Assembly (NCBI RefSeq): GCF_000311745.1
Contig: NZ_HE978531.1
Span: 124,001 to 188,000, forward strand
Direction: 5' to 3'
DNA length: 64,000 nucleotides
Source: Anaerococcus obesiensis ph10
Lineage (GTDB): Bacteria > Bacillota > Clostridia > Tissierellales > Peptoniphilaceae
Part shown: positions 26,911 through 56,923 of the stretch, piece by piece
Position numbering within the stretch: position 1 is the first letter of the stretch
Layout of the letters: each line of letters begins with the position of its first letter
Made by a program: the position numbers and the translations under genes
The notes under the pieces: generated by a model
Told to the model about the DNA's origin: nothing
Database searches by the model: none
Seen by the model: the letters and a program-made list of their open reading frames with translations, nothing else

Positions 26911-27653
26911 TTGGAGATTTTTTGTTTTTGGATGATAATTTGTGTCTTTTTTGCAAGGATGAAGAAAAAGAAAAATTTTCTTTGTGCAAAACTTGTCTTT
27001 CAAAGCTTGATTATGTTGACAATGAATTTGAAATTTTAAATTATAAGGCTAGAGTTTTGTATTTTTATAATCCTTTTATGGCACATTTGATTGGAGATTT
27101 TAAGTTTAATAGAAATACTTCCCTTTATAAAATTTTTGGTCAAATGATATATGATTATATTAAAGAAAAATCTATAGATGATTTTGATTATATTCTTACG
27201 ACGCCCTCATCAAAATCTGTTTTAATTAATAGGGGATTTGACCACATAAAACTTATTTGTGATTATTTTATAGATGAAACTAATATGAAATATTTAGAAA
27301 ATTTTAAAAAAATAAAAAACACAAAGGCTCAACATAAACTGTCAAGAGAAGAAAGGGCAAAAAATTTAAAAAATTCTTTTGAATTTTATGGAGATTTGAC
27401 TGGGAAAAAAGTTTTGATTTTTGACGATATTATTACAAGTTCCAATACTATGAAAGAAATTATAAGAACAATTGAAAAGGAAAATCCAAAAAATATAGAA
27501 ATTCTTGCCCTTGCATCAAGTCATAGGGTAAAAAATAAGGTGCGGGGGCACCTTATTTTTTATGCATTTTCTTTTTCACTTTCTTTTAAAAATTCGTGTA
27601 TTTTTACGGCAAGTGCCATTTCTATTCTTTTTTTGAAAACTTTACATCCGTAA
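26907..27653 (+). CDS. comFC: ComF-family phosphoribosyltransferase-like protein, 3' end apparently altered
   Basis: ComFC-like protein linked to DNA uptake and processing. N-terminal zinc ribbon CLFC...CKTC, then the PRT-like part: LTTPSSKSVLINRGFDH, the QHKLSREERAKNLKNSF segment, and the PRPP loop KVLIFDDIITSSNTM. ATG 26907 overlaps the recD2 stop; a start at 26877 would lie inside recD2. The frame runs past the expected end, through its own terminator hairpin (27531-27561), and about 90 bases into antisense of the maturase gene, adding about 40 residues without family pattern. One extra A in the A6 run at 27530-27535 would give VKK and a TAA at once, just before the hairpin. Confidence 0.88.
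   Translation: MIGDFLFLDDNLCLFCKDEEKEKFSLCKTCLSKLDYVDNEFEILNYKARVLYFYNPFMAHLIGDFKFNRNTSLYKIFGQMIYDYIKEKSIDDFDYILTTPSSKSVLINRGFDHIKLICDYFIDETNMKYLENFKKIKNTKAQHKLSREERAKNLKNSFEFYGDLTGKKVLIFDDIITSSNTMKEIIRTIEKENPKNIEILALASSHRVKNKVRGHLIFYAFSFSLSFKNSCIFTASAISILFLKTLHP
27531..27561. terminator. Bidirectional terminator between comFC and the SCIFF maturase
   Basis: AAAAATAAGGTGC (27531-27543), loop GGGG, GCACCTTATTTTT (27548-27560), flanked by A/T runs on both sides. It serves converging genes. Confidence 0.88.
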
Positions 27654-28945
27654 TCATAAATTTTATTTATGTCGCCACCTGCATTATAATTATTTGCTGC
27701 ACAGCCTCCTGAGCAATACATTTGTGCCCAGCAGTCTTTGCATTTTTCTTGGCTATATAAATTATTTTTTTTGAAATTCTTAATTATTTCTGGTTTTTTG
27801 ATTCCTTCAAAAACATTTCCTATTTTGAAATCGTCGTTTCCAACAAATTGATGGCAAGGATATAAATCTCCTGTTGGTGTAACTGCCATATATTCTGATC
27901 CTGATCCACAACCTGAAATTCTTTTGTAAACGCAAGGCCCATTGTTTAAATCTATCATATAATGGTAAAAAATAAATTTGTCGTCTTTGTCGATTGCATC
28001 TATTAACATATCGGCAAGTTTTTCGTATTCTTCAAAAATTCTTGGAAGATGCTCTTCTTTTAGGGCGTAATCCTCTTCATTATTTCCAACAACTGGCTCA
28101 AGAGATGTTCTTTTAAAACCTAGATTTAAATATGTATTTATATCTTCTGTAAAATCTAAATTGTTTGCTGTAAAAGTTCCTCTCATATAATATTCTTTAT
28201 CGCCACGATTTTTTACTAATTTTTGAAATTTTGGAACAATTTTATCAAATGAGCCATTTCCATCATGAGTTTTCCTAAATTCATCGTGTTTTTCTTTTCT
28301 TCCATCAAGAGAAAGAACAACATTTTTCATATTTTTATTTAGATATTGGATTTTTTCATCATCCAAAAGCATACCATTTGTAGTAAGGGTAAAATTAAAA
28401 TGTTTATTATATTTTTTTTCCTTACTTCTGGCATAATCGACGGTATTTTTTACCAAATCCCAATTTAAAAGTGGTTCTCCGCCAAAAAAGTCAATATCCA
28501 AATTAAAATGAGATCCTGAATTTTCTAAAAGAAAATCAATAGATTTTTTTGCGACTTCATCTGTCATAATTGCTTCAGGGCCATGGTATCGTCCTTCTTT
28601 TGCAAAACAATACTCACAAGAAAGATTGCAAGTGTGACTTACATTTAAGCACATTGCCTTTAGATAAGTTTTTCTTTTATCCAAATCAATGGTTAAATCT
28701 TTAAAATCATCATCTGAAAATAAAACTTTTTCGCTAACTAAACTTTTTACTTCATCATAAGCCTCATCAAATTGGTCTTGATTTATATTATGTAAATTTT
28801 TAATTTCTTTTTCTATGTAAGATTTGTCTTTATTTTTATTTAATAGGCTTATAATATCGTAAGAAATTTGATCAACTAGATGAACTGATCCGGAATAAAC
28901 ATCCAAAACAATATTATAACCCTTTGCTTTATATTGGTGTATCAT
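27560..28945 (-). CDS. scfB: SCIFF peptide maturase (thioether-forming radical SAM/SPASM enzyme)
   Basis: A 461-residue enzyme expected to install cysteine-derived thioether crosslinks in the adjacent SCIFF peptide. An N-terminal RRE-like peptide-binding region (residues ~1-80) is followed by the radical SAM motif CNLSCEYC (C106, C110, C113), FFGGEPLLN, and a C-terminal SPASM/twitch region with cysteines in GCGSGSEYMAVTP, YPCHQF, KCKDCWAQMYCSGGC and YDYGCKVF for auxiliary Fe-S clusters. It lies downstream of the peptide gene on the same strand, with a hairpin between. The length and the cysteine layout match the Clostridia SCIFF maturase family. Confidence 0.93.
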   Translation of the reverse strand: MIHQYKAKGYNIVLDVYSGSVHLVDQISYDIISLLNKNKDKSYIEKEIKNLHNINQDQFDEAYDEVKSLVSEKVLFSDDDFKDLTIDLDKRKTYLKAMCLNVSHTCNLSCEYCFAKEGRYHGPEAIMTDEVAKKSIDFLLENSGSHFNLDIDFFGGEPLLNWDLVKNTVDYARSKEKKYNKHFNFTLTTNGMLLDDEKIQYLNKNMKNVVLSLDGRKEKHDEFRKTHDGNGSFDKIVPKFQKLVKNRGDKEYYMRGTFTANNLDFTEDINTYLNLGFKRTSLEPVVGNNEEDYALKEEHLPRIFEEYEKLADMLIDAIDKDDKFIFYHYMIDLNNGPCVYKRISGCGSGSEYMAVTPTGDLYPCHQFVGNDDFKIGNVFEGIKKPEIIKNFKKNNLYSQEKCKDCWAQMYCSGGCAANNYNAGGDINKIYDYGCKVFKKRIEMALAVKIHEFLKESEKENA

Positions 28946-28989
28946 TTTTTCTCCTTAATTTATAGTAAAATACTTGGGATTTAATCCAA

Positions 28990-29016
28990 TAAAAAAATAA
29001 GGGGCTTGCCCTTATT
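28990..29016 (-). terminator. Hairpin between SCIFF peptide and maturase genes
   Basis: On the minus strand AATAAGGG, loop CAAGC, CCCTTATT and then a T-run. It begins at the peptide stop codon. It should end most transcripts after the abundant precursor gene and let a fraction reach the maturase, a common RiPP arrangement. Confidence 0.75.
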
Positions 29017-29161
29017 TATTTTTTGTGTTAACACATTCTTGGTTAGCAACTCCACAAGAAGTTTTGCAAGCTGATTGGCAAGATGTTTGACATTCGCCAC
29101 AGCCACCATCTTTTTTGCTTTTGTGAAGATTTCTTGTATTTAAAGTAATAATTCTTTTCAT
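29012..29161 (-). CDS. scfA: SCIFF (six-cysteines-in-forty-five) ranthipeptide precursor
   Basis: A 49-residue peptide. It starts MKRIITLNTRNLHKSKKDGG and has six cysteines at 21, 24, 28, 32, 36 and 43 in the core (GGCGECQTSC, QSACKTSCGV, NQEC), with threonine/serine/asparagine acceptors between them; the tail is VNTKNK. This is the nearly invariant SCIFF pattern of Clostridia. RBS AAAGGAGA lies before the ATG, and a consensus promoter (TTGACA/TATTAT) is 30-60 bases upstream. The maturase follows. In known SCIFFs the thioether bonds go to the gamma carbon of an acceptor residue; the biological role is still debated. Confidence 0.95.
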   Translation of the reverse strand: MKRIITLNTRNLHKSKKDGGCGECQTSCQSACKTSCGVANQECVNTKNK

Positions 29162-29189
29162 ATATGTATCTCCTTTTTCCTATAGATTC

Positions 29190-29218
29190 ATAATAACAAA
29201 ATGGATAATTTTTGTCAA
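29190..29218 (-). promoter_or_regulatory. Consensus promoter of scfA
   Basis: On the minus strand TTGACA (29213-29218), 17-bp spacer, TATTAT (29190-29195). It overlaps the 3' end of the decarboxylase gene, so the SCIFF unit is transcribed independently of it. Confidence 0.85.
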
Positions 29219-30555
29219 TTGATAATAGGAATGTGAGAATTTTCCAAAGATAAATCAATTCCCATAGTTTGAAGATATTTAATCTGGTCAATAATTTTTT
29301 TATTAATAATTTCTCCAGGAATAAGAAGGGGAATTCCTGGTGGATAGGCATAAATATATGAGGCAGAGATTTTGCCTTGAGATTTGTCTAGATCAATCAA
29401 AGAAATATCTTTGCAAAAAGATTCTTTAATAGATAATTTTTTTTCACATTCAATAAATTCAAATGAAAAATTTGATTTTTTATATTTTAAATTCTTATCA
29501 ATTTTTAATAAGGCTTTTTTTAATCTCAAAAATCCATCTTTCCTATCAAAAATACTTGCAATCAAAATCACATAAGTTGGGCTTGCCATTTCAATCTCGA
29601 TTTTTTCTTTGTATAATAAATCAGAAAGCTCATTCCCGTTAATATTTGTATTTTTGCAAGAAATAATAATTTTTGAAATATCTTTAGACTTAGAATTGAT
29701 AAATTTTAAATTTTTCAAATCAGTTTTATACAAATAAGTTAAATTTTCCAATAAGTTATCCCACAGACCATAAAAATTTGAAAAATTAGAAATCATATCA
29801 TCAATTGAGCCACTTACTAAATAAGATGGGGAAGATGTTTGAAATATTGCCATATTTCGTCTTAAATTTTTAATATCAATATTTTTATTTTTTATAATAA
29901 TGCCACTAGCTGGAGTTAAAGCTGATAAATTTTTGTGAAAAGATGTAATAGCTAGGTCGTAGGAAAAATTATTTTCATAATCGGATAAGATTGTATGAGA
30001 ACCATGAGCCATATCAACAAGCAATAAAATATTTTTATCCTTTATTATTTCTTTAATCTTTTTTAAATCAATCATAAAACCCTCATAAGAAGGAGAAGTA
30101 AGAAAAATCAAAGAATAAGAATTTTTTTCGATTTTTTTATTCAAATCTTCGTAATCAATGTCATAAGCCATATCATTTTCGTCTATTTTTACCTTTAAAA
30201 AATCTGCATTTAAATCAAAAAGCTCAATTGCATTAAAAACAGATTTGTGGGAATTTCTTTGGACTAGAATATTTTTATTTTTTTGGGTTAAAGCTCTTAA
30301 TGATGCAAGAATTCCACAGGTTGAACCGTTAGTTGAAATTATAAAGTCATTAGCTTTATAGATATGAGCAAGTTCATTTTCCATTTTTTTGAAAAGCCCT
30401 TGGGGATTATTCAAATTATCAAAATTTCTAATTTCTGTTATATCTCTTTCGTAAGAAATTTTTTTATTTAACAAATTTTTATTTCTTTTGTGTCCAGGCA
30501 TAGCAAATGGATAATAATCTTCTTTTAAATAATCATCTAATTTTTCATTTAACAT
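29215..30555 (-). CDS. Orn/Lys/Arg decarboxylase-like PLP enzyme (fold type I)
   Basis: A 446-residue COG1982-type enzyme. Near the start it has the family motif FAMPGHKRN, then GSTCGILASLRAL (cofactor phosphate loop), RNSHKSVFNAI, the PLP-binding DMAHGSH (Asp181, His184) and the Schiff-base lysine K208 in TSFHKNLSAL. The C-terminal AYPPGIPLLIPGE is also typical. It would decarboxylate a basic amino acid (arginine or lysine are the usual substrates of short Bacillota members) to a polyamine; the exact substrate cannot be read. The gene is a single unit upstream of scfA; its minus-strand RBS is weak (AAAGGATT). Confidence 0.88.
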   Translation of the reverse strand: MLNEKLDDYLKEDYYPFAMPGHKRNKNLLNKKISYERDITEIRNFDNLNNPQGLFKKMENELAHIYKANDFIISTNGSTCGILASLRALTQKNKNILVQRNSHKSVFNAIELFDLNADFLKVKIDENDMAYDIDYEDLNKKIEKNSYSLIFLTSPSYEGFMIDLKKIKEIIKDKNILLLVDMAHGSHTILSDYENNFSYDLAITSFHKNLSALTPASGIIIKNKNIDIKNLRRNMAIFQTSSPSYLVSGSIDDMISNFSNFYGLWDNLLENLTYLYKTDLKNLKFINSKSKDISKIIISCKNTNINGNELSDLLYKEKIEIEMASPTYVILIASIFDRKDGFLRLKKALLKIDKNLKYKKSNFSFEFIECEKKLSIKESFCKDISLIDLDKSQGKISASYIYAYPPGIPLLIPGEIINKKIIDQIKYLQTMGIDLSLENSHIPIIN

Positions 30556-30726: not shown

Positions 30727-33288
30727 ATGAATAAAAATAAAAAATTAAAAATTACTTCGTTTGTAATTTCTTTGATTGTAATGCTTTTTATTCAAAGCTT
30801 TATTGAAGATTTTTCTTACAAAGTTTATACAAACGAAAAAATTGAAATTAGTCAATTGGAACCTAGTAGCCAATATTCGAATAATTTTAAAATTAATTCG
30901 ATTTATCAAGGCGATAAACTTTTAGACTTAAACAAGGTTGATATTAAAGGATGGACAAAGGCAAATACAAAAACGGGCTATCCAATTCAAACAAATGGTT
31001 ATAGCAAGGATAATAAATTAAGTATTAAACCTAGTCCAAGATTGATGTTTAATAAATTAACAGTAAATTTTGAAACAAGTCCAAAATATTCTACAGCTGT
31101 GATGACTTATTTAAAAGACCATACAATGACAATGTATGCTAGCTCATCTGATAATAGGTCATACGTAGATATTAATTACACAGACTTTTTATCAATTCTT
31201 ACACAAACATTAATTTTTATAGGCTCAATAGTTCTATTTTCATTTTTTATTTATAATTTAATAAGAAGAATAGAAAAGGCAGAAAATAAGAAAAAAGAAA
31301 TCTTATACATAGGTAAAGATTATATTTTGAATTTTTTAGTTTTTGGTATATCTGTTTATGGTTTGAGTAAACTAAGAGATCATGTAAATAATGAAATTTA
31401 TTTTACTTTCTTCCGTGCACCATTTACTTACAATGATTTGGTAGAATTTATATCAATTGTATTTTTAGCATCTCTTGGAATGAAAAGTATTTACAAGAGA
31501 AAACAAAACATAAAAGCACTTGATATGACAAATTGGATTTTATTTATCCTAAATCCATTCATGTCATTTTATATATTGGAATCAGCTTACAATCCAAATT
31601 TTGCTTCAATGGAAGTAATTTATATATTAATAAATGCTTTAATTTTATTCTTAATCCAAGTTTTAATATATATTGTAATTAGGAAAAAAAGACTTTCAAT
31701 GATTTTCATTTTAGTTTTATCAATTGCTTTTGGTATTGCTAATGATGCTTTGTATATATTGAGAGATTCTCCGCTTATACCAGCATTTTTGGGATCACTT
31801 GGAGTTGCAGCTGATGTTGCAAAAGATACAGTTATTCAACTAAATGGACATTCATTAATGGCATTTTCACTTGCAAGCTTGTGGCTTTTAGTAATTTCTT
31901 CTATAAATGAAGGAAAAATTACAATTTCCAAGAAGTCTTATGCAAAACAACTTGTTGGTTATTGTACGATGTTTGGATTGATTACTGTAGTTAGCGTAAA
32001 TTATTTTATCAAGCAAAATGGAGTTGGAGTAAACTTGTGGAGACCATCAAGAACTTATTATGTAGAAGGTTCCCCATATAGTTTTTATAGAATTTTTGCA
32101 AACCAAATTCTAACAGCACCAAGAGGCTATGATGAAAAAGAAGTAGAAAATACATTAGAAGAATATTACAACAAAGATATTGGAACAAAAGATAACAAAA
32201 AACCAAATATTGTAATGATTCAATCTGAAGCTCTTGCTGATTATTATGGAAAAGGAAATTTAAAATTAAGTGAAAATCCAATTGCTTTCCAAAGATCTTT
32301 AGAAGAAAATGCAATTCAAGGAAATGCTTATGTTTCAGTTCTTGGTGGAGGAACAGTAAATTCAGAATACGAAACTTTAACTTCAGTTCCTTTGACATTT
32401 TTCCCACTAGGAGCTTATCCATTCCAACAATATGTAAAAGAAGGTCACACATCAGTAGCAAGAATTTTGGAAAATCAAGGTTATGAAACATTTATAACTC
32501 ATCCAAATAAACCAACAAATTATTCAAGACAAGAAGTATGGCCAAATTTAGGATTTAAAAATATTGCATTTTTACCAGATTATGACCAAAACCCAAATAA
32601 TTTTGAATCAACAAATGGATTTTTAAAAGATTCAGTTGCTTATGACAAAATAAAAGAGCAATTTGAAAATAAATCTGATGACAAACCTCTTTTTGCATAT
32701 CTTGTATCAATGCAAAATCATGGTGGTTATACATCAAATATTCCTGGAGGCATCAAAGTTTTAAATGAAAATAATGGAGATGATCAAGGGGCAAGCCATT
32801 ATGTAAACTTGCTTAAAAAATCTGATGAGGATTTAAAAAATCTAATCGAATACTTCAAATCTTATAAGGAACCAACAATACTTTGTATATTTGGTGATCA
32901 TCAACCACAAAACTACGATGTATTTATGAAGTTGATAAACTCAAATGACAACTATACAAATAAGGATGTTTTCCATACGCCTCTTACTATTTGGGCAAAT
33001 TATGATATTGAAGAGGATAAGGATGTAAATATATCAGTAAATTACTTAATGCCATATTTATTAGAAAAAGCTGGTGGAATTAAATTATCAGCATATCAAA
33101 AATATATGTTAGATATGCACAAGGATTATCCAATTATTTCAACTAAACAAATATATAATAATGAAGGTCAAGAAGTAAGCAAAGATGAAGAATTTATAAA
33201 GAGAAATAATAAATTAAATTCCTTAATTTATTATGAAATGAAGCAAGATACAAAATCAAATAAATATTTTAATGAAGCTTCAAAATAA
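30727..33288 (+). CDS. LTA-synthase/phosphoglycerol-transferase-like membrane sulfatase-fold enzyme
   Basis: An 853-residue protein. The N-terminal half has about nine hydrophobic segments (e.g. residues 11-24, 155-180, 260-300, 305-345) with an extracytoplasmic stretch after the first. The C-terminal domain (residues ~480-800) is an alkaline-phosphatase/sulfatase fold: PNIVMIQSEAL at its first strand, the nucleophile region GGGTVNSEYETLTS with the threonine, SMQNHGG and the metal-binding FGDHQPQ. This is the pattern of LtaS-type polyglycerol-phosphate polymerases and related phosphoglycerol transferases; at 853 residues it is longer than LtaS (about 650), with more membrane segments. RBS AGAGAGGA before ATG. 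Confidence 0.88.
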   Translation: MNKNKKLKITSFVISLIVMLFIQSFIEDFSYKVYTNEKIEISQLEPSSQYSNNFKINSIYQGDKLLDLNKVDIKGWTKANTKTGYPIQTNGYSKDNKLSIKPSPRLMFNKLTVNFETSPKYSTAVMTYLKDHTMTMYASSSDNRSYVDINYTDFLSILTQTLIFIGSIVLFSFFIYNLIRRIEKAENKKKEILYIGKDYILNFLVFGISVYGLSKLRDHVNNEIYFTFFRAPFTYNDLVEFISIVFLASLGMKSIYKRKQNIKALDMTNWILFILNPFMSFYILESAYNPNFASMEVIYILINALILFLIQVLIYIVIRKKRLSMIFILVLSIAFGIANDALYILRDSPLIPAFLGSLGVAADVAKDTVIQLNGHSLMAFSLASLWLLVISSINEGKITISKKSYAKQLVGYCTMFGLITVVSVNYFIKQNGVGVNLWRPSRTYYVEGSPYSFYRIFANQILTAPRGYDEKEVENTLEEYYNKDIGTKDNKKPNIVMIQSEALADYYGKGNLKLSENPIAFQRSLEENAIQGNAYVSVLGGGTVNSEYETLTSVPLTFFPLGAYPFQQYVKEGHTSVARILENQGYETFITHPNKPTNYSRQEVWPNLGFKNIAFLPDYDQNPNNFESTNGFLKDSVAYDKIKEQFENKSDDKPLFAYLVSMQNHGGYTSNIPGGIKVLNENNGDDQGASHYVNLLKKSDEDLKNLIEYFKSYKEPTILCIFGDHQPQNYDVFMKLINSNDNYTNKDVFHTPLTIWANYDIEEDKDVNISVNYLMPYLLEKAGGIKLSAYQKYMLDMHKDYPIISTKQIYNNEGQEVSKDEEFIKRNNKLNSLIYYEMKQDTKSNKYFNEASK

Positions 33289-51757: not shown

Positions 51758-51789
51758 AACTACAACAATAATTTATTTATAAAAATTTA

Positions 51790-52034
51790 TGAAAAAAAGA
51801 GTAGGCTTATTAAAAAGCACAGAGAGTTGGAGTTTGGTGAGATCCATCCTTTGAAATAAGTTCGAAAATCATTTTTCTTTTGCATATCTGAATTATAGTA
51901 AGATATGTCGCCATGGTTGGCGTTATCAAAACCCGGCATTGTTTGATGCTTGAAGAGCTTATTTTTATATAAGAATAAAGGTGGTAACGCGGAATTTTCG
52001 TCCTTTGTCTAATTTTTAGACAAGGGACTTTTTT
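51790..52034 (+). ncRNA. T-box riboswitch (probably Ile-specific) with terminator
   Basis: Stem I has the AGTA bulge (about 51799), GGCTTATT pairing with AATAAGTT (51855-51862), an AGAGAG and TTGGTGAGAT apical region. The specifier bulge reads CGAAAATCA, with ATC (51868-51870, Ile) the best candidate. The antiterminator T-box is AAAGGTGGTAACGCGGAA (51978-51994); its TGGT would pair with a tRNA ending ACCA, as tRNA-Ile does. The terminator is GTCCTTTGTCTA (52000-52011) with TAGACAAGGGAC (52017-52028) and six T. It controls brnQ: uncharged tRNA-Ile should switch transport on. Confidence 0.9.
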
Positions 52035-52072
52035 AATGAATAAATATTGTAATAAATTTTTTGGAGGATATA

Positions 52073-53416
52073 ATGAAAAAATTATCAACAAGTCAATTTT
52101 TACAAGTTAGTGTAATGCTATTCGGTTTATTTTTTGGAGCTGGAAATTTAATTTTCCCTCCACTTTTAGGAAATCAAGCAGGATCTTTTACATTTATTTC
52201 TTTGTTAGCATTTTGCGTTACTGCTGTAATATTTCCTGTAATGGGAGCTATAGTAGTAGGAAAAACTGAAGGATTAACAAATTTATCCAACAGAGTTTCT
52301 CCTTTATTTTCTGTAGTTTTTACTACGGCAATATATTTATCAATAGGACCTGGACTTGGAATACCAAGAGCGGGATCTGTTCCATTTGAAATGGCAATAG
52401 CTCCGTATATACCTCAAGGATTTAATATAAATCTTGCAAGATTTTTATATACTTTAGTATTTTTTAGTGTTGCCTTATTTGTATGCTTAAAACCAAATAA
52501 ACTTGTCAAGAGAGTTGGAAAATATTTAACACCTGCACTTTTAATAATGATAGTTTTTATGTTTTTAAAAGTGATAACAATGGATAAAAATATAGCAGCT
52601 CCTGTTGGAGAATATAAAAATGCTCCATTAGTAAAGGGATTTTTGGAAGGATATAACACTATGGATGCTGTCGCTGCATTAAATTTTGGTTTTGTAATAG
52701 CTCAATCCATAAAAAGATTTGGAGTAAAAGATAAAAATGAAGTTACAAATTATACAATAAAAGCAGGACTTGTAGCAGGAAGTGTTTTATTTTTAGTATA
52801 TGCAATGCTTGCAAGTGTAGGAATGATAGGCTCATCAAAACTTGTTGGAGCAGAAAATGGCGCTGTAATATTAACATATGCAGTAAAAAATGTTTTTGGA
52901 AATTTTGGAATAATTTTACTTGCAGCAATATTTACCCTTGCATGTCTTACAACTTGTATAGGACTTATAACAAGTGGTGGAGAATATTTTGAATCATTAT
53001 TTAACCAAAAATTATCATATAGAAAATGGGTTTTAGTTTGGACTTTATTTTCATTTTTGATGGCAAATTTTGGATTAAATAAATTATTAGAATTTTCAGT
53101 TCCACTATTAACAATAATATATCCAGTAGCCTTAGTCTTAATACTAATGGGAATAAGCCATGATTTTATAAATTATTCAAAAGAATCTTACCTATTTACA
53201 GCAAGTTTATCAGTTTTAATACCATTAGTAGAAGTATTAAATAATTCATTTGGAATAAAATTGTGGTTTGTCACAAATTTAGTTGAATCTTTACCATTAT
53301 ATAAAGAAGGACTTTCATGGCTATTGCCAAGCCTATTTGTTTTAGTTATAACAACAGTAGTTTTTAAATTCTTGTACACATTTAAAGAGAATGAAAAAAT
53401 TAAAGAAAGATATTAG
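52073..53416 (+). CDS. brnQ: Branched-chain amino acid transport system II carrier (LIVCS family)
   Basis: A cation-coupled importer of Leu, Ile and Val with twelve predicted membrane segments; 447 residues from ATG 52073 (an in-frame ATG at 52061 is less well placed with regard to TTGGAGGATATA). Family motifs: FGLFFGAGNLIFPPLLG near the N-terminus, YLSIGPGLGIPRAGSVPFEMA, and LNFGFVIAQSIKRFGV. The Ile-type T-box leader just upstream fits the substrate. Terminator follows. Confidence 0.94.
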   Translation: MKKLSTSQFLQVSVMLFGLFFGAGNLIFPPLLGNQAGSFTFISLLAFCVTAVIFPVMGAIVVGKTEGLTNLSNRVSPLFSVVFTTAIYLSIGPGLGIPRAGSVPFEMAIAPYIPQGFNINLARFLYTLVFFSVALFVCLKPNKLVKRVGKYLTPALLIMIVFMFLKVITMDKNIAAPVGEYKNAPLVKGFLEGYNTMDAVAALNFGFVIAQSIKRFGVKDKNEVTNYTIKAGLVAGSVLFLVYAMLASVGMIGSSKLVGAENGAVILTYAVKNVFGNFGIILLAAIFTLACLTTCIGLITSGGEYFESLFNQKLSYRKWVLVWTLFSFLMANFGLNKLLEFSVPLLTIIYPVALVLILMGISHDFINYSKESYLFTASLSVLIPLVEVLNNSFGIKLWFVTNLVESLPLYKEGLSWLLPSLFVLVITTVVFKFLYTFKENEKIKERY

Positions 53417-55075: not shown

Positions 55076-55304
55076 AAGCGTGATAGAGGTGCGGAAAACA
55101 TTAGTAAAATATTTTTTTGGGAATCGAAAATATTTGAAAGGGTAATCCACCGAGGGATTTTGAGTCTGCCCAAGACTTAAAGTTGCCGGGACGATTGGAG
55201 AATATCTGTCGTACTGCCATATTTTTATGGAGAGCTGTCGTGGTTTATAATTATTTTATATAGTTTAATATTTAAGTCATGGCATGCGTCATGACTTTTT
55301 TTGC
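55076..55304 (+). ncRNA. Lysine riboswitch (L box) with terminator
   Basis: GTGATAGAGGTGCGG (from 55080) and the later GGAGAGCTGTCGTGG (to about 55243) close the P1 helix, pairing GTGATAG with CTGTCGT. Between them are ATTAGTA, TGGGAATCGAAA, CACCGAGGG, TTGCCGGGAC and the ATATCTGTCGTAC junction, as in B. subtilis lysC L box. A terminator, AAGTCATG (55274-55281) with CATGACTT (55290-55297) and T-run, follows, so lysine should lower expression of the downstream transporter. Confidence 0.9.
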
Positions 55305-55330
55305 AATTTAAATTCGAGAGGAGTTTTAAA

Positions 55331-56923
55331 ATGAACAAAAAAAGAAAATTACCATTACTTTTGGTAATTTCTTTAGCACCGATAATTGTTTCGATATTTA
55401 TTGTAGAAAGTGGTATTGAAACTTATGCTAGTATTTGGGCGTTATTACCCCCAGTTGTGGCAATTTTAATGGCACTTATGACAAAAGAAGTATATTCTTC
55501 TTTATTTTTGGGGATTGTAATAGGAGCAATATTAGCATCAAAAAGATCTTTGGCAAAATTTTTAGATAATATTGTTGTAAAAGGTCTAACTAATTCTATT
55601 TCACAAACTTCAGGAATTTTTATTTTCTTGATAGTTTTGGGAATTTTGGTAGTATTAATAAATCATTCTGGAGGATCAAAAGCATTTGGGCAATGGGCTG
55701 ACAAAAAGATAAAATCAAGAAAAGGATCACAACTTGCAACATATTTTTTATGCATTATGCTTTTTATTGATGATTATTTTAATTGTTTGACATCAGGTTC
55801 TGTAATGAGACCAATTACTGATTCTCACAGAATTTCTAGAGCAAAACTTGCTTATCTTATAGATGCAACAGCAGCTCCAATTTGTATGATTGCACCAATT
55901 TCATCATGGGCTGCTGCAGTTTCTGGATATGCACAAGGAACAGGTCTTTCGGGAATAGAATTATTTATAAAGGCGATTCCTTATAATTTTTATTCTATTT
56001 TAACTTTGTTTTTTGTAATATCTCTTATTCTTTTTGGAAGAGATTATGGTCCTATGAAAGATTTTGAAGATAGGGCAATTAATGATGGAGACTTGGGAAA
56101 TATAGTAGAATCAGAAGTTAGTGCAGAAGATGGTAATCCTGAAGGAAAAGTTATTGATTTAGTTTTTCCAATTTTAAGTCTTATTATAATTTCTGTTTTG
56201 TCTTTAGTTCATATTGGTGGATTTTTTGATAAATCTAGTGAATTTTATATGGATTTTGTAAATGCTTTTGCAAATACTGATTCGACAGTTGCTCTTCCAA
56301 TGGGAGCAATTATAGCTTTAATTATTACGATAATTTATTTTCTGATAAGAAAAGTTATAAGTTTTGAAAAATCTATGGATGCAATCCCAGAAGGTTTTCA
56401 ATCAATGGTTCCTGCAATTTTGATTTTAACAATGGCTACAAGCTTAAAAAATATTTCAAATGATTTGTTAGGCTCAACAAAATTTGTCGGAAATCTTATG
56501 ACAAATGCAGCAAGTGGACTTAGCACATTTTTGCCAGCTGTTATATTTGTTGTAGCAATTTTATTAGCGTTTGCAACTGGAACAAGTTGGGGAACTTTTG
56601 GAATTTTGATTCCTATAGTAGCATCAATGTTTGATCCAACTGATCCAATATTTTTTATAGGAATTTCAGCTTGTCTTTCAGGAGCAGTTTGTGGAGATCA
56701 TATTTCTCCAATTTCTGATACAACAATTATGTCATCAGCAGGAGCAGGATGCGTTCACGTCGATCATGTAAGAACTCAACTGCCTTATGGAATAACTGTT
56801 GCATCAATAGCTACAATTTCTTTTATAATAGCAGGCTTTACACAATCAGCTTTAATTTCAATAGCTTTTGGAGCAATTGTAATTTTTATTTTTATGTTGT
56901 ATTTAAATAAAAGTAAAAAATGA
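55331..56923 (+). CDS. NhaC-superfamily transporter under a lysine riboswitch, probable lysine transporter
   Basis: A 530-residue polytopic protein, NhaC superfamily. LPPVVAILMALMTKEVYSSLF, LFIDDYFNCLTSGSVMRPITDSHRISRAKLAYLIDATAAPICM, FATGTSWGTFGI and SGAVCGDHISPISDTTIMSSAG are its family motifs. NhaC-like genes preceded by lysine riboswitches have been predicted as lysine transporters (LysW). So this is likely lysine uptake and not sodium extrusion; it differs from the 43002 gene, which has no L box. ATG 55331 is chosen as GAGAGGAG precedes it; the upstream in-frame start at 55301 lies in the terminator tail. Confidence 0.88.
   Translation: MNKKRKLPLLLVISLAPIIVSIFIVESGIETYASIWALLPPVVAILMALMTKEVYSSLFLGIVIGAILASKRSLAKFLDNIVVKGLTNSISQTSGIFIFLIVLGILVVLINHSGGSKAFGQWADKKIKSRKGSQLATYFLCIMLFIDDYFNCLTSGSVMRPITDSHRISRAKLAYLIDATAAPICMIAPISSWAAAVSGYAQGTGLSGIELFIKAIPYNFYSILTLFFVISLILFGRDYGPMKDFEDRAINDGDLGNIVESEVSAEDGNPEGKVIDLVFPILSLIIISVLSLVHIGGFFDKSSEFYMDFVNAFANTDSTVALPMGAIIALIITIIYFLIRKVISFEKSMDAIPEGFQSMVPAILILTMATSLKNISNDLLGSTKFVGNLMTNAASGLSTFLPAVIFVVAILLAFATGTSWGTFGILIPIVASMFDPTDPIFFIGISACLSGAVCGDHISPISDTTIMSSAGAGCVHVDHVRTQLPYGITVASIATISFIIAGFTQSALISIAFGAIVIFIFMLYLNKSKK

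Follow-up and report, generated by a model that had tools for sequence, protein, structure and literature searches.

Why should the gene for a putative amino acid decarboxylase stand directly beside the genes of a SCIFF (six cysteines in forty-five residues) peptide system, the role of which is little known though such systems are present in 322 of 391 class genomes? We address this question for Anaerococcus obesiensis ph10 (genome of 2.04 Mb across five contigs), taking as the window a stretch of 64,000 nucleotides of contig NZ_HE978531.1 (positions 124,001 to 188,000). Three genes follow one another there on the minus strand: the decarboxylase homologue (29215-30555), the precursor gene scfA (29012-29161) and the maturase gene scfB (27560-28945), while recD2 and comFC lie on the far side of scfB in convergent orientation. 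Sequence comparison makes it somewhat likely that this is a SCIFF system of the type with Gly at precursor residue 37 (Gly37), in which the decarboxylase acts in the same pathway. The firmest points are the split of the family into two branches at residue 37 and the adjacency of the decarboxylase. A usual enzyme neighbour provides a new lead on SCIFF peptide function and a concrete gene to study alongside scfA.

The locus was confirmed as a complete SCIFF system, an already known kind. The 49-residue precursor has its six Cys at positions 21, 24, 28, 32, 36 and 43, as read directly from the open reading frame, and scores 82.6 bits against TIGR03973 (cut-off 50) and 80.5 bits against PF13165 (cut-off 27). 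ScfB, a radical S-adenosylmethionine (SAM)/SPASM maturase of 461 residues that starts 66 bp past the scfA stop codon, scores 733.6 bits against TIGR03974 (cut-off 425), and the whole genome holds one match above cut-off to each of TIGR03973 and TIGR03974. The preliminary description had claimed a complete SCIFF locus with a short, six-cysteine precursor of 49 codons, and these scores, both far above the curated cut-offs, bear it out. ScfB keeps its CxxxCxxC motif (C106, C110 and C113) and further cysteines in the SPASM region (C346, C364, C402, C405, C411, C415 and C434), their assignment to individual clusters being our assumption. Its nearest solved sequence is 5wgg/5why (534.9 bits across residues 1-451), which we take to be CteB, the database entry being titled only "radical SAM domain protein". 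The absence of an adjacent exporter or protease, also claimed earlier, holds for the eight neighbouring proteins scanned: none is an exporter or protease for ribosomally synthesized and post-translationally modified peptides (RiPPs), and the nearest export-like protein among them (PF06695, 33382-33855) is more than 4 kb from scfA. An Rfam scan gave no match at the SCIFF locus at gathering thresholds.

For comparison, samples of 31 Anaerococcus genomes, 130 genomes of the family and 391 genomes drawn evenly across the class were used; SCIFF precursors were found in all 31 of the first and in 117 of the second, in addition to the class-wide count given above. The window scfA has Gly at residue 37. 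When 177 evenly drawn class genomes were typed with two DNA codon patterns, one for Gly37 and one for Thr37, 33 carried the former, 116 the latter and none both, the remaining 28 being without SCIFF; a reversed control pattern gave zero matches in the rows shown. A collection of 202 loci (L148, which lacks scfA, was dropped) comprised 127 with Gly37 and 75 with Thr37, numbers that are biased in that 80 loci were picked for similarity to the window peptide, all of them Gly37, and seven Anaerococcus contigs are counted twice (L154-L160). On a tree of 147 ScfB proteins (LG+G4, quick search, after removal of proteins shorter than 380 residues and then of 43 near-copies among 190), there is a single change at residue 37 of the associated precursor, with a Shimodaira-Hasegawa-like approximate likelihood ratio (SH-aLRT) support of 99, indicating that maturase and peptide split together. 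Two ScfB positions are among those that best separate the branches: position 105, just ahead of CxxxCxxC, is Thr in 81 of 85 Gly37 rows and Asp in 61 of 62 Thr37 rows, and position 437, three residues past Cys434, is Phe in 83 of the same 85 rows and Glu (39) or Gln (10) in the 62.

This split bears on the thioether that the maturase forms. According to the relevant passages of two reviews (PMC8326336, PMC8172795), in vitro work placed the link of both Tte1186a and CteA between Cys32 and Thr37, later co-expression in E. coli gave a Cys32-Thr34 gamma-thioether for CteA, and both reviews leave the discrepancy between the two acceptors open. Thermocellin (CteA-CteB) and Tte1186a belong to the same precursor and maturase families as the window system, and donor Cys32 and acceptor Thr34 are both present in the window peptide. 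However, CteA and Tte1186a have Thr37 where the window peptide has Gly37, the gene context is different, and ScfB differs by branch at several positions, 105 and 437 among them, close to the cluster-motif cysteines. Glycine has no beta carbon. Because the window peptide, whose membership of the family points to the ranthipeptide class, is without Thr37, a non-alpha thioether in it would need Thr34 or some other residue as acceptor. Thr34 occurs in all 202 loci, and all 149 SCIFF genomes of the even sample retain the segment Cys32-Lys33-Thr34-Ser35-Cys36. Across the 202 loci, residues 21, 24, 28-31, 33-35 and 43 are invariant (counting the first module of tandem precursors), and Cys32 is found in 200, Ser replacing both Cys32 and Cys36 in two loci only. 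With Thr37 missing from an entire branch and Thr34 present throughout both sets, Thr34 is favoured as the general acceptor, although each branch could use its own. The Gly37 branch, together with the genus that carries Ser32 and Ser36, makes the linkage question testable with natural sequences.

The second firm point concerns the decarboxylase, a short homologue of the pyridoxal 5'-phosphate (PLP)-dependent Orn/Lys/Arg decarboxylases (PF01276, OKR_DC_1, 109.6 bits). It carries the Lys, His and Asp residues of active-site type, and His103, Asp181, His184 and Lys208 are unchanged in all 103 aligned homologues; we presume their roles from the fold family, and the activity itself is predicted. Among the 31 Anaerococcus genomes, it is always upstream of scfA and on the same strand. 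The decarboxylase and comFC had previously been set down as non-standard SCIFF neighbours. For comFC, this view stands: comFC and recD2 were rejected as partners, each occurring at only 30 of the 202 loci, and the 30 with comFC are 28 from Anaerococcus (five being second copies) plus L114 and L117 from two near genera. It does not stand for the decarboxylase, which lies beside scfAB in 91 of 106 Gly37 loci with enough flank (at least 1.4 kb before and at least 3 kb after scfA), compared with five of 46 Thr37 loci.

Other ways of counting gave similar pictures. With the window protein as the phmmer query, a homologue was present at 103 of the 127 Gly37 loci and five of the 75 Thr37 loci (100 and five, respectively, by blastp clusters), bearing in mind that 30 loci, 26 of them Thr37, extend only about 1.5 kb per side, where a decarboxylase downstream of scfB is invisible. 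Within the family of the window, the figures for loci with enough flank were 42 of 43 and five of 49. In the even sample, where best matches only were counted, by hand, the gene is beside scfA in 15 of 16 Gly37 genomes and in none of 38 Thr37 genomes, where it lies hundreds of kb from scfA or on a different contig. Placement is variable: of the 103 Gly37 cases, 65 are upstream and adjacent, two further upstream, 35 downstream and one on the other strand, while the five Thr37 cases (L108, L109, L126, L129 and L130), all from one lineage, are downstream of scfB.

Could such a distribution arise from inherited gene order alone? In that case the locus would be an ordinary SCIFF locus on which the decarboxylase hitch-hikes, with Gly37 a neutral feature of one old branch. 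We consider this possible, though on the doubtful side. The single change of residue 37 on the ScfB tree means that the Gly37 loci could share an ancestral arrangement, and the Thr37 type likewise lies among housekeeping genes: within limits set by the flanks, the 75 Thr37 loci have tgt (51), yajC (47), queA (38) and ruvB (38) upstream, and recJ (33) and relA (29) downstream. However, a merely inherited order agrees poorly with a decarboxylase that lies upstream or downstream depending on the Gly37 lineage, and that is also found beside scfB in one Thr37 lineage. It agrees poorly, too, with the absence of tmk from Gly37 loci that have the decarboxylase: none of the 100 such loci in the decarboxylase cluster gave a tmk match, and one has a holB-like match. 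In 18 other family genomes, 16 of them read as Thr37 and two untyped (G052 and G121), the decarboxylase gene sits in a tmk block in 14 (gene names assigned by eye). Two more decarboxylase regions were examined, from one Gly37 genome and one SCIFF-less genome.

The decarboxylase tree (103 proteins, unrooted, quick search, with proteins under 380 residues and near-copies removed) is informative in this respect. The tmk-linked and Thr37-adjacent proteins form one group of 21 together with four others, and the Gly37-adjacent proteins fall into two groups, one of 53 rows, which includes the window protein and is mostly upstream of scfA with two rows not adjacent, and one of 29 rows, all downstream. 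Two or more recruitments of the decarboxylase to Gly37 loci are therefore probable on this topology, although a single ancestral adjacency may instead have been lost in the tmk group, the tree being unrooted and quickly made. Outside the clostridia, the decarboxylase, a Gly37 scfA and scfB occur together in Trichococcus pasteurii of the Bacilli (L175), which suggests joint transfer of the trio. Paenibacillus radicibacter (L198) has a maturase sister to that of T. pasteurii, and no decarboxylase was seen within 5 kb of it.

The two systems also tend to be present or absent together. In the class-wide sample, 312 genomes have both, 10 SCIFF only, 20 the decarboxylase only and 49 neither, so that the decarboxylase is absent from 49 of 69 SCIFF-less genomes and from 10 of 322 SCIFF-bearing ones, counts that are uncorrected for phylogeny. 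Restricting the sample to high-quality genomes (at least 90% complete, at most 5% contaminated; counted by hand) gave 267, 5, 9 and 37, respectively. Within the family, the same eight high-quality genomes lack SCIFF and the decarboxylase; when all 130 are considered, three less complete ones (G063, G068 and G097) disagree, the decarboxylase of G068 being at a contig end. None of the 33 Gly37 genomes in the 177-genome sample lacks the decarboxylase. The same is nearly true of the Thr37 genomes, in which the gene is usually elsewhere and yet seldom missing (5 of 116), which is again more than hitch-hiking would lead one to expect. RecD2, used as a control, is absent from 10 of the 69 genomes without SCIFF and 16 of the 322 with it (Fisher p 0.013); this association is far weaker, so poor assembly alone does not explain the shared absence. 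Genome reduction in some families may contribute to it.

Several observations weigh against the decarboxylase's acting in the SCIFF pathway, or against the chemistry that we favour. The decarboxylase is not visible at 24 of the 127 Gly37 loci (four of these have less than 1.2 kb before scfA and four others less than 1.2 kb after it), and among the 106 with enough flank it is missing from 15. Adjacency amounts to 16 changes on the ScfB tree, meaning that it was often gained or lost, and an independent-pairs test on the same tree yielded only one pair for residue 37. Homologues without SCIFF linkage exist, such as S. aureus 2x3l and B. subtilis YaaO, and nine of the high-quality genomes have a decarboxylase and no SCIFF, with five showing the reverse. 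RecD2 is an imperfect control, as it is weakly associated with SCIFF and commoner than SCIFF. Adjacent genes are easily removed together by one deletion, a point in favour of hitch-hiking, and the counts ignore both phylogeny and linked deletion. Finally, the donor Cys32 is Ser in G100 and G103, so a Cys32 link is not universal. In spite of these points, we regard a functional link between the decarboxylase and SCIFF as probable, on account of the adjacency, the probable repeated recruitment, and the shared presence and absence.

Another explanation, which appears improbable, is that the decarboxylase supplies the cell at large with a polyamine or diamine and is merely co-located with scfAB. 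Its match to OKR_DC_1 would fit such a role, and so would its short-form relatives, described in passages of one paper as characterised arginine, ornithine or lysine decarboxylases (PMC8503589). Yet no polyamine gene was found among the eight neighbours scanned, and the case of YaaO speaks against it. In the consulted parts of two papers (PMC8503589, PMC6522883), YaaO is a short arginine decarboxylase paralogue next to tmk, its deletion leaves polyamines unchanged, in B. subtilis it has an effect on the aminopentanol modification of EF-P, and no activity has been determined for it. The decarboxylase partner of SCIFF thus belongs to a group that is itself without an assigned reaction. YaaO shares the fold family of the window protein, and the homologues of other family genomes are mostly in a tmk-yaaQ-holB-ricT block (by eye), but the window protein falls in a separate tree group and, as at Gly37 loci generally, its gene is beside scfAB rather than tmk.

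Returning to a decarboxylase that works with SCIFF, we picture the pathway as follows. Transcription of scfA from its own promoter would end mostly at a terminator at its own stop codon, yielding much precursor, with scfB made in smaller amounts by read-through or from a weaker promoter of its own. ScfB would then hold the leader by its N-terminal recognition domain, as has been shown for CteB, and join Cys32 through a radical SAM thioether to what is most likely Thr34, given its conservation and the absence of Thr37 from the Gly37 branch. The upstream PLP-dependent decarboxylase homologue would act in the same pathway in this branch, with either the peptide itself or some small amino acid or amine handled by it as the substrate. 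A more specific version, which we think unlikely as it stands, joins all three genes: the SCIFF peptide would be the substrate or carrier, ScfB would install the Cys32-Thr34 ring, and the decarboxylase would yield an amine by taking a carboxylate off either the peptide itself or a peptide-bound amino acid, with the same pairing operating at a distance in Thr37 genomes. If this were true, YaaO-like enzymes and clostridial SCIFF peptides would be two halves of one system. Decarboxylation of a C-terminal Lys was considered as the specific reaction and is not supported, there being no clear difference in last residue between locus types: the peptide ends in Lys or Arg at 85 of the 100 decarboxylase-bearing Gly37 loci, at 19 of the 27 that lack the gene and at 53 of the 75 Thr37 loci. 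Daptides, with a decarboxylated and aminated C-terminus, provide a precedent for such a modification in RiPPs, according to passages of one paper (PMC10036551); however, no daptide-type gene set was seen at the window locus, and SCIFF loci with and without the decarboxylase alike have peptides ending in Lys or Arg.

Expression signals around scfA are consistent with the first steps of this picture. The scfA promoter (29190..29218, minus strand), TTGACA-17-TATTAT with TG ahead of the -10 element, matches the consensus at 11 of 12 positions and scores highest of the 35 promoter-like sites found over 4.2 kb, with one plus-strand site also reaching 11; the 35 sites are not clearly more than in shuffled sequences (27.8, standard deviation 5.3). 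The promoter form is common to all 31 genus genomes (TTGACA, once TTGACT, a 17-bp spacer and TANNAT, with at least 10 of 12 matches), ending 24-48 bp upstream of the scfA start, and chance is no explanation for this. The consensus promoter of the preliminary description is thereby upheld, as is the presence of its hairpin: a 9-bp stem resembling an intrinsic terminator (28995..29017, minus strand) overlaps the scfA stop codon and is followed by a T run, with a stability of -11.5 kcal/mol (z -2.37; six of 200 shuffles equally or more stable). What that description called attenuation is unproven, the form being that of an intrinsic terminator. A simple detector found such a hairpin just 3' of the scfA stop in 27 of the 31 genus genomes, the other four having a gap of 120-136 bp ahead of scfB. 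Its sequence varies among species while its form is constant, as would be expected of a terminator more than of a conserved RNA switch. Upstream of scfB, a -10-like TATAAA and an AAGGAG ribosome-binding site (28951..28964, minus strand) were read from the sequence, the former a possible separate scfB promoter, and TATAAT or TATAAA occurs between the hairpin and the scfB ribosome-binding site in 21 of the 31 genomes. With a hairpin of intrinsic terminator form, this makes separate transcription of scfB as likely as read-through; transcript amounts of scfA and scfB probably differ. That the hairpin is a regulated attenuator, responding to scfA translation or to the scfA product, is very improbable. 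In the window, as in many genus genomes, it starts right at the stop codon of scfA, where a terminating ribosome could influence it, but its sequence differs among species while its form stays, it starts at least 8 bp past the stop in genomes with longer gaps, and a search confined to the window found no competing structure beyond the listed inverted repeats. A palindromic operator, TAGTA-N3-TACTA, suspected between scfA and scfB is not general among the genus genomes.

In the literature searched, which did not extend to the primary papers on SCIFF discovery and chemistry, there was no mention of the Gly37 branch or of a decarboxylase partner, and nothing joining Anaerococcus with ranthipeptides, or SCIFF with yajC, turned up. 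We therefore describe the Gly37 branch with its decarboxylase as a variant for which no description was found within that scope, its novelty in print being unproven. SCIFF activity is listed, in the section of one review dealing with it (PMC8326336), as quorum sensing, from one study in solventogenic clostridia.

As to the distribution of SCIFF itself, ScfB (E <= 1e-100) was found in 116 of the 130 family genomes, and the 13 without scfA are all without scfB too. The one further genome in which ScfB was missed (G119, locus L145) has a weaker ScfB-like frame (239 bits) 200 bp after scfA, possibly the result of decay or of a sequencing error, and in G122 scfA and scfB (L147 and L148) are 316 kb apart on the same contig. 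Tandem precursors, with two full leader-core modules in one frame, were found at six loci from five genus codes (L116, L136, L137, L242, L247 and L249; three of the 130 family and three of the 391 class genomes); those at L116, L242, L247 and L249 are all of the Gly37 type. In two class genomes, G183 and G204, a second SCIFF match was weak and below the cut-off. The ScfB tree includes five of the tandem maturases, which cluster with one another (support 87) in spite of belonging to four family codes, a pattern suggestive of a single origin and of transfer. At L136 (4995-5273, a reversed locus, contig C33 of G100) and L137 (1609-1887, contig C63 of G103), both modules have Ser32 and Ser36, and the tandem precursors directly abut scfB; the four other genomes of the same genus code are without SCIFF and without the decarboxylase.

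Elsewhere in the window, a terminator-like hairpin (27528..27563, plus strand) marks the unit boundary where the end of the convergent comFC meets the 3' end of scfB. Divergent from the decarboxylase gene, 30727-33288 encodes an 853-residue protein with a sulfatase-fold domain (PF00884) that resembles lipoteichoic acid synthases by eye. Farther away, a T-box leader (51785-52008, 119.6 bits) precedes a gene for a protein resembling, by eye, a branched-chain amino acid carrier (52061-53416), and a lysine riboswitch (55076-55245, 90.1 bits) precedes a gene for a large transporter-like protein, NhaC-like by eye (55301-56923).

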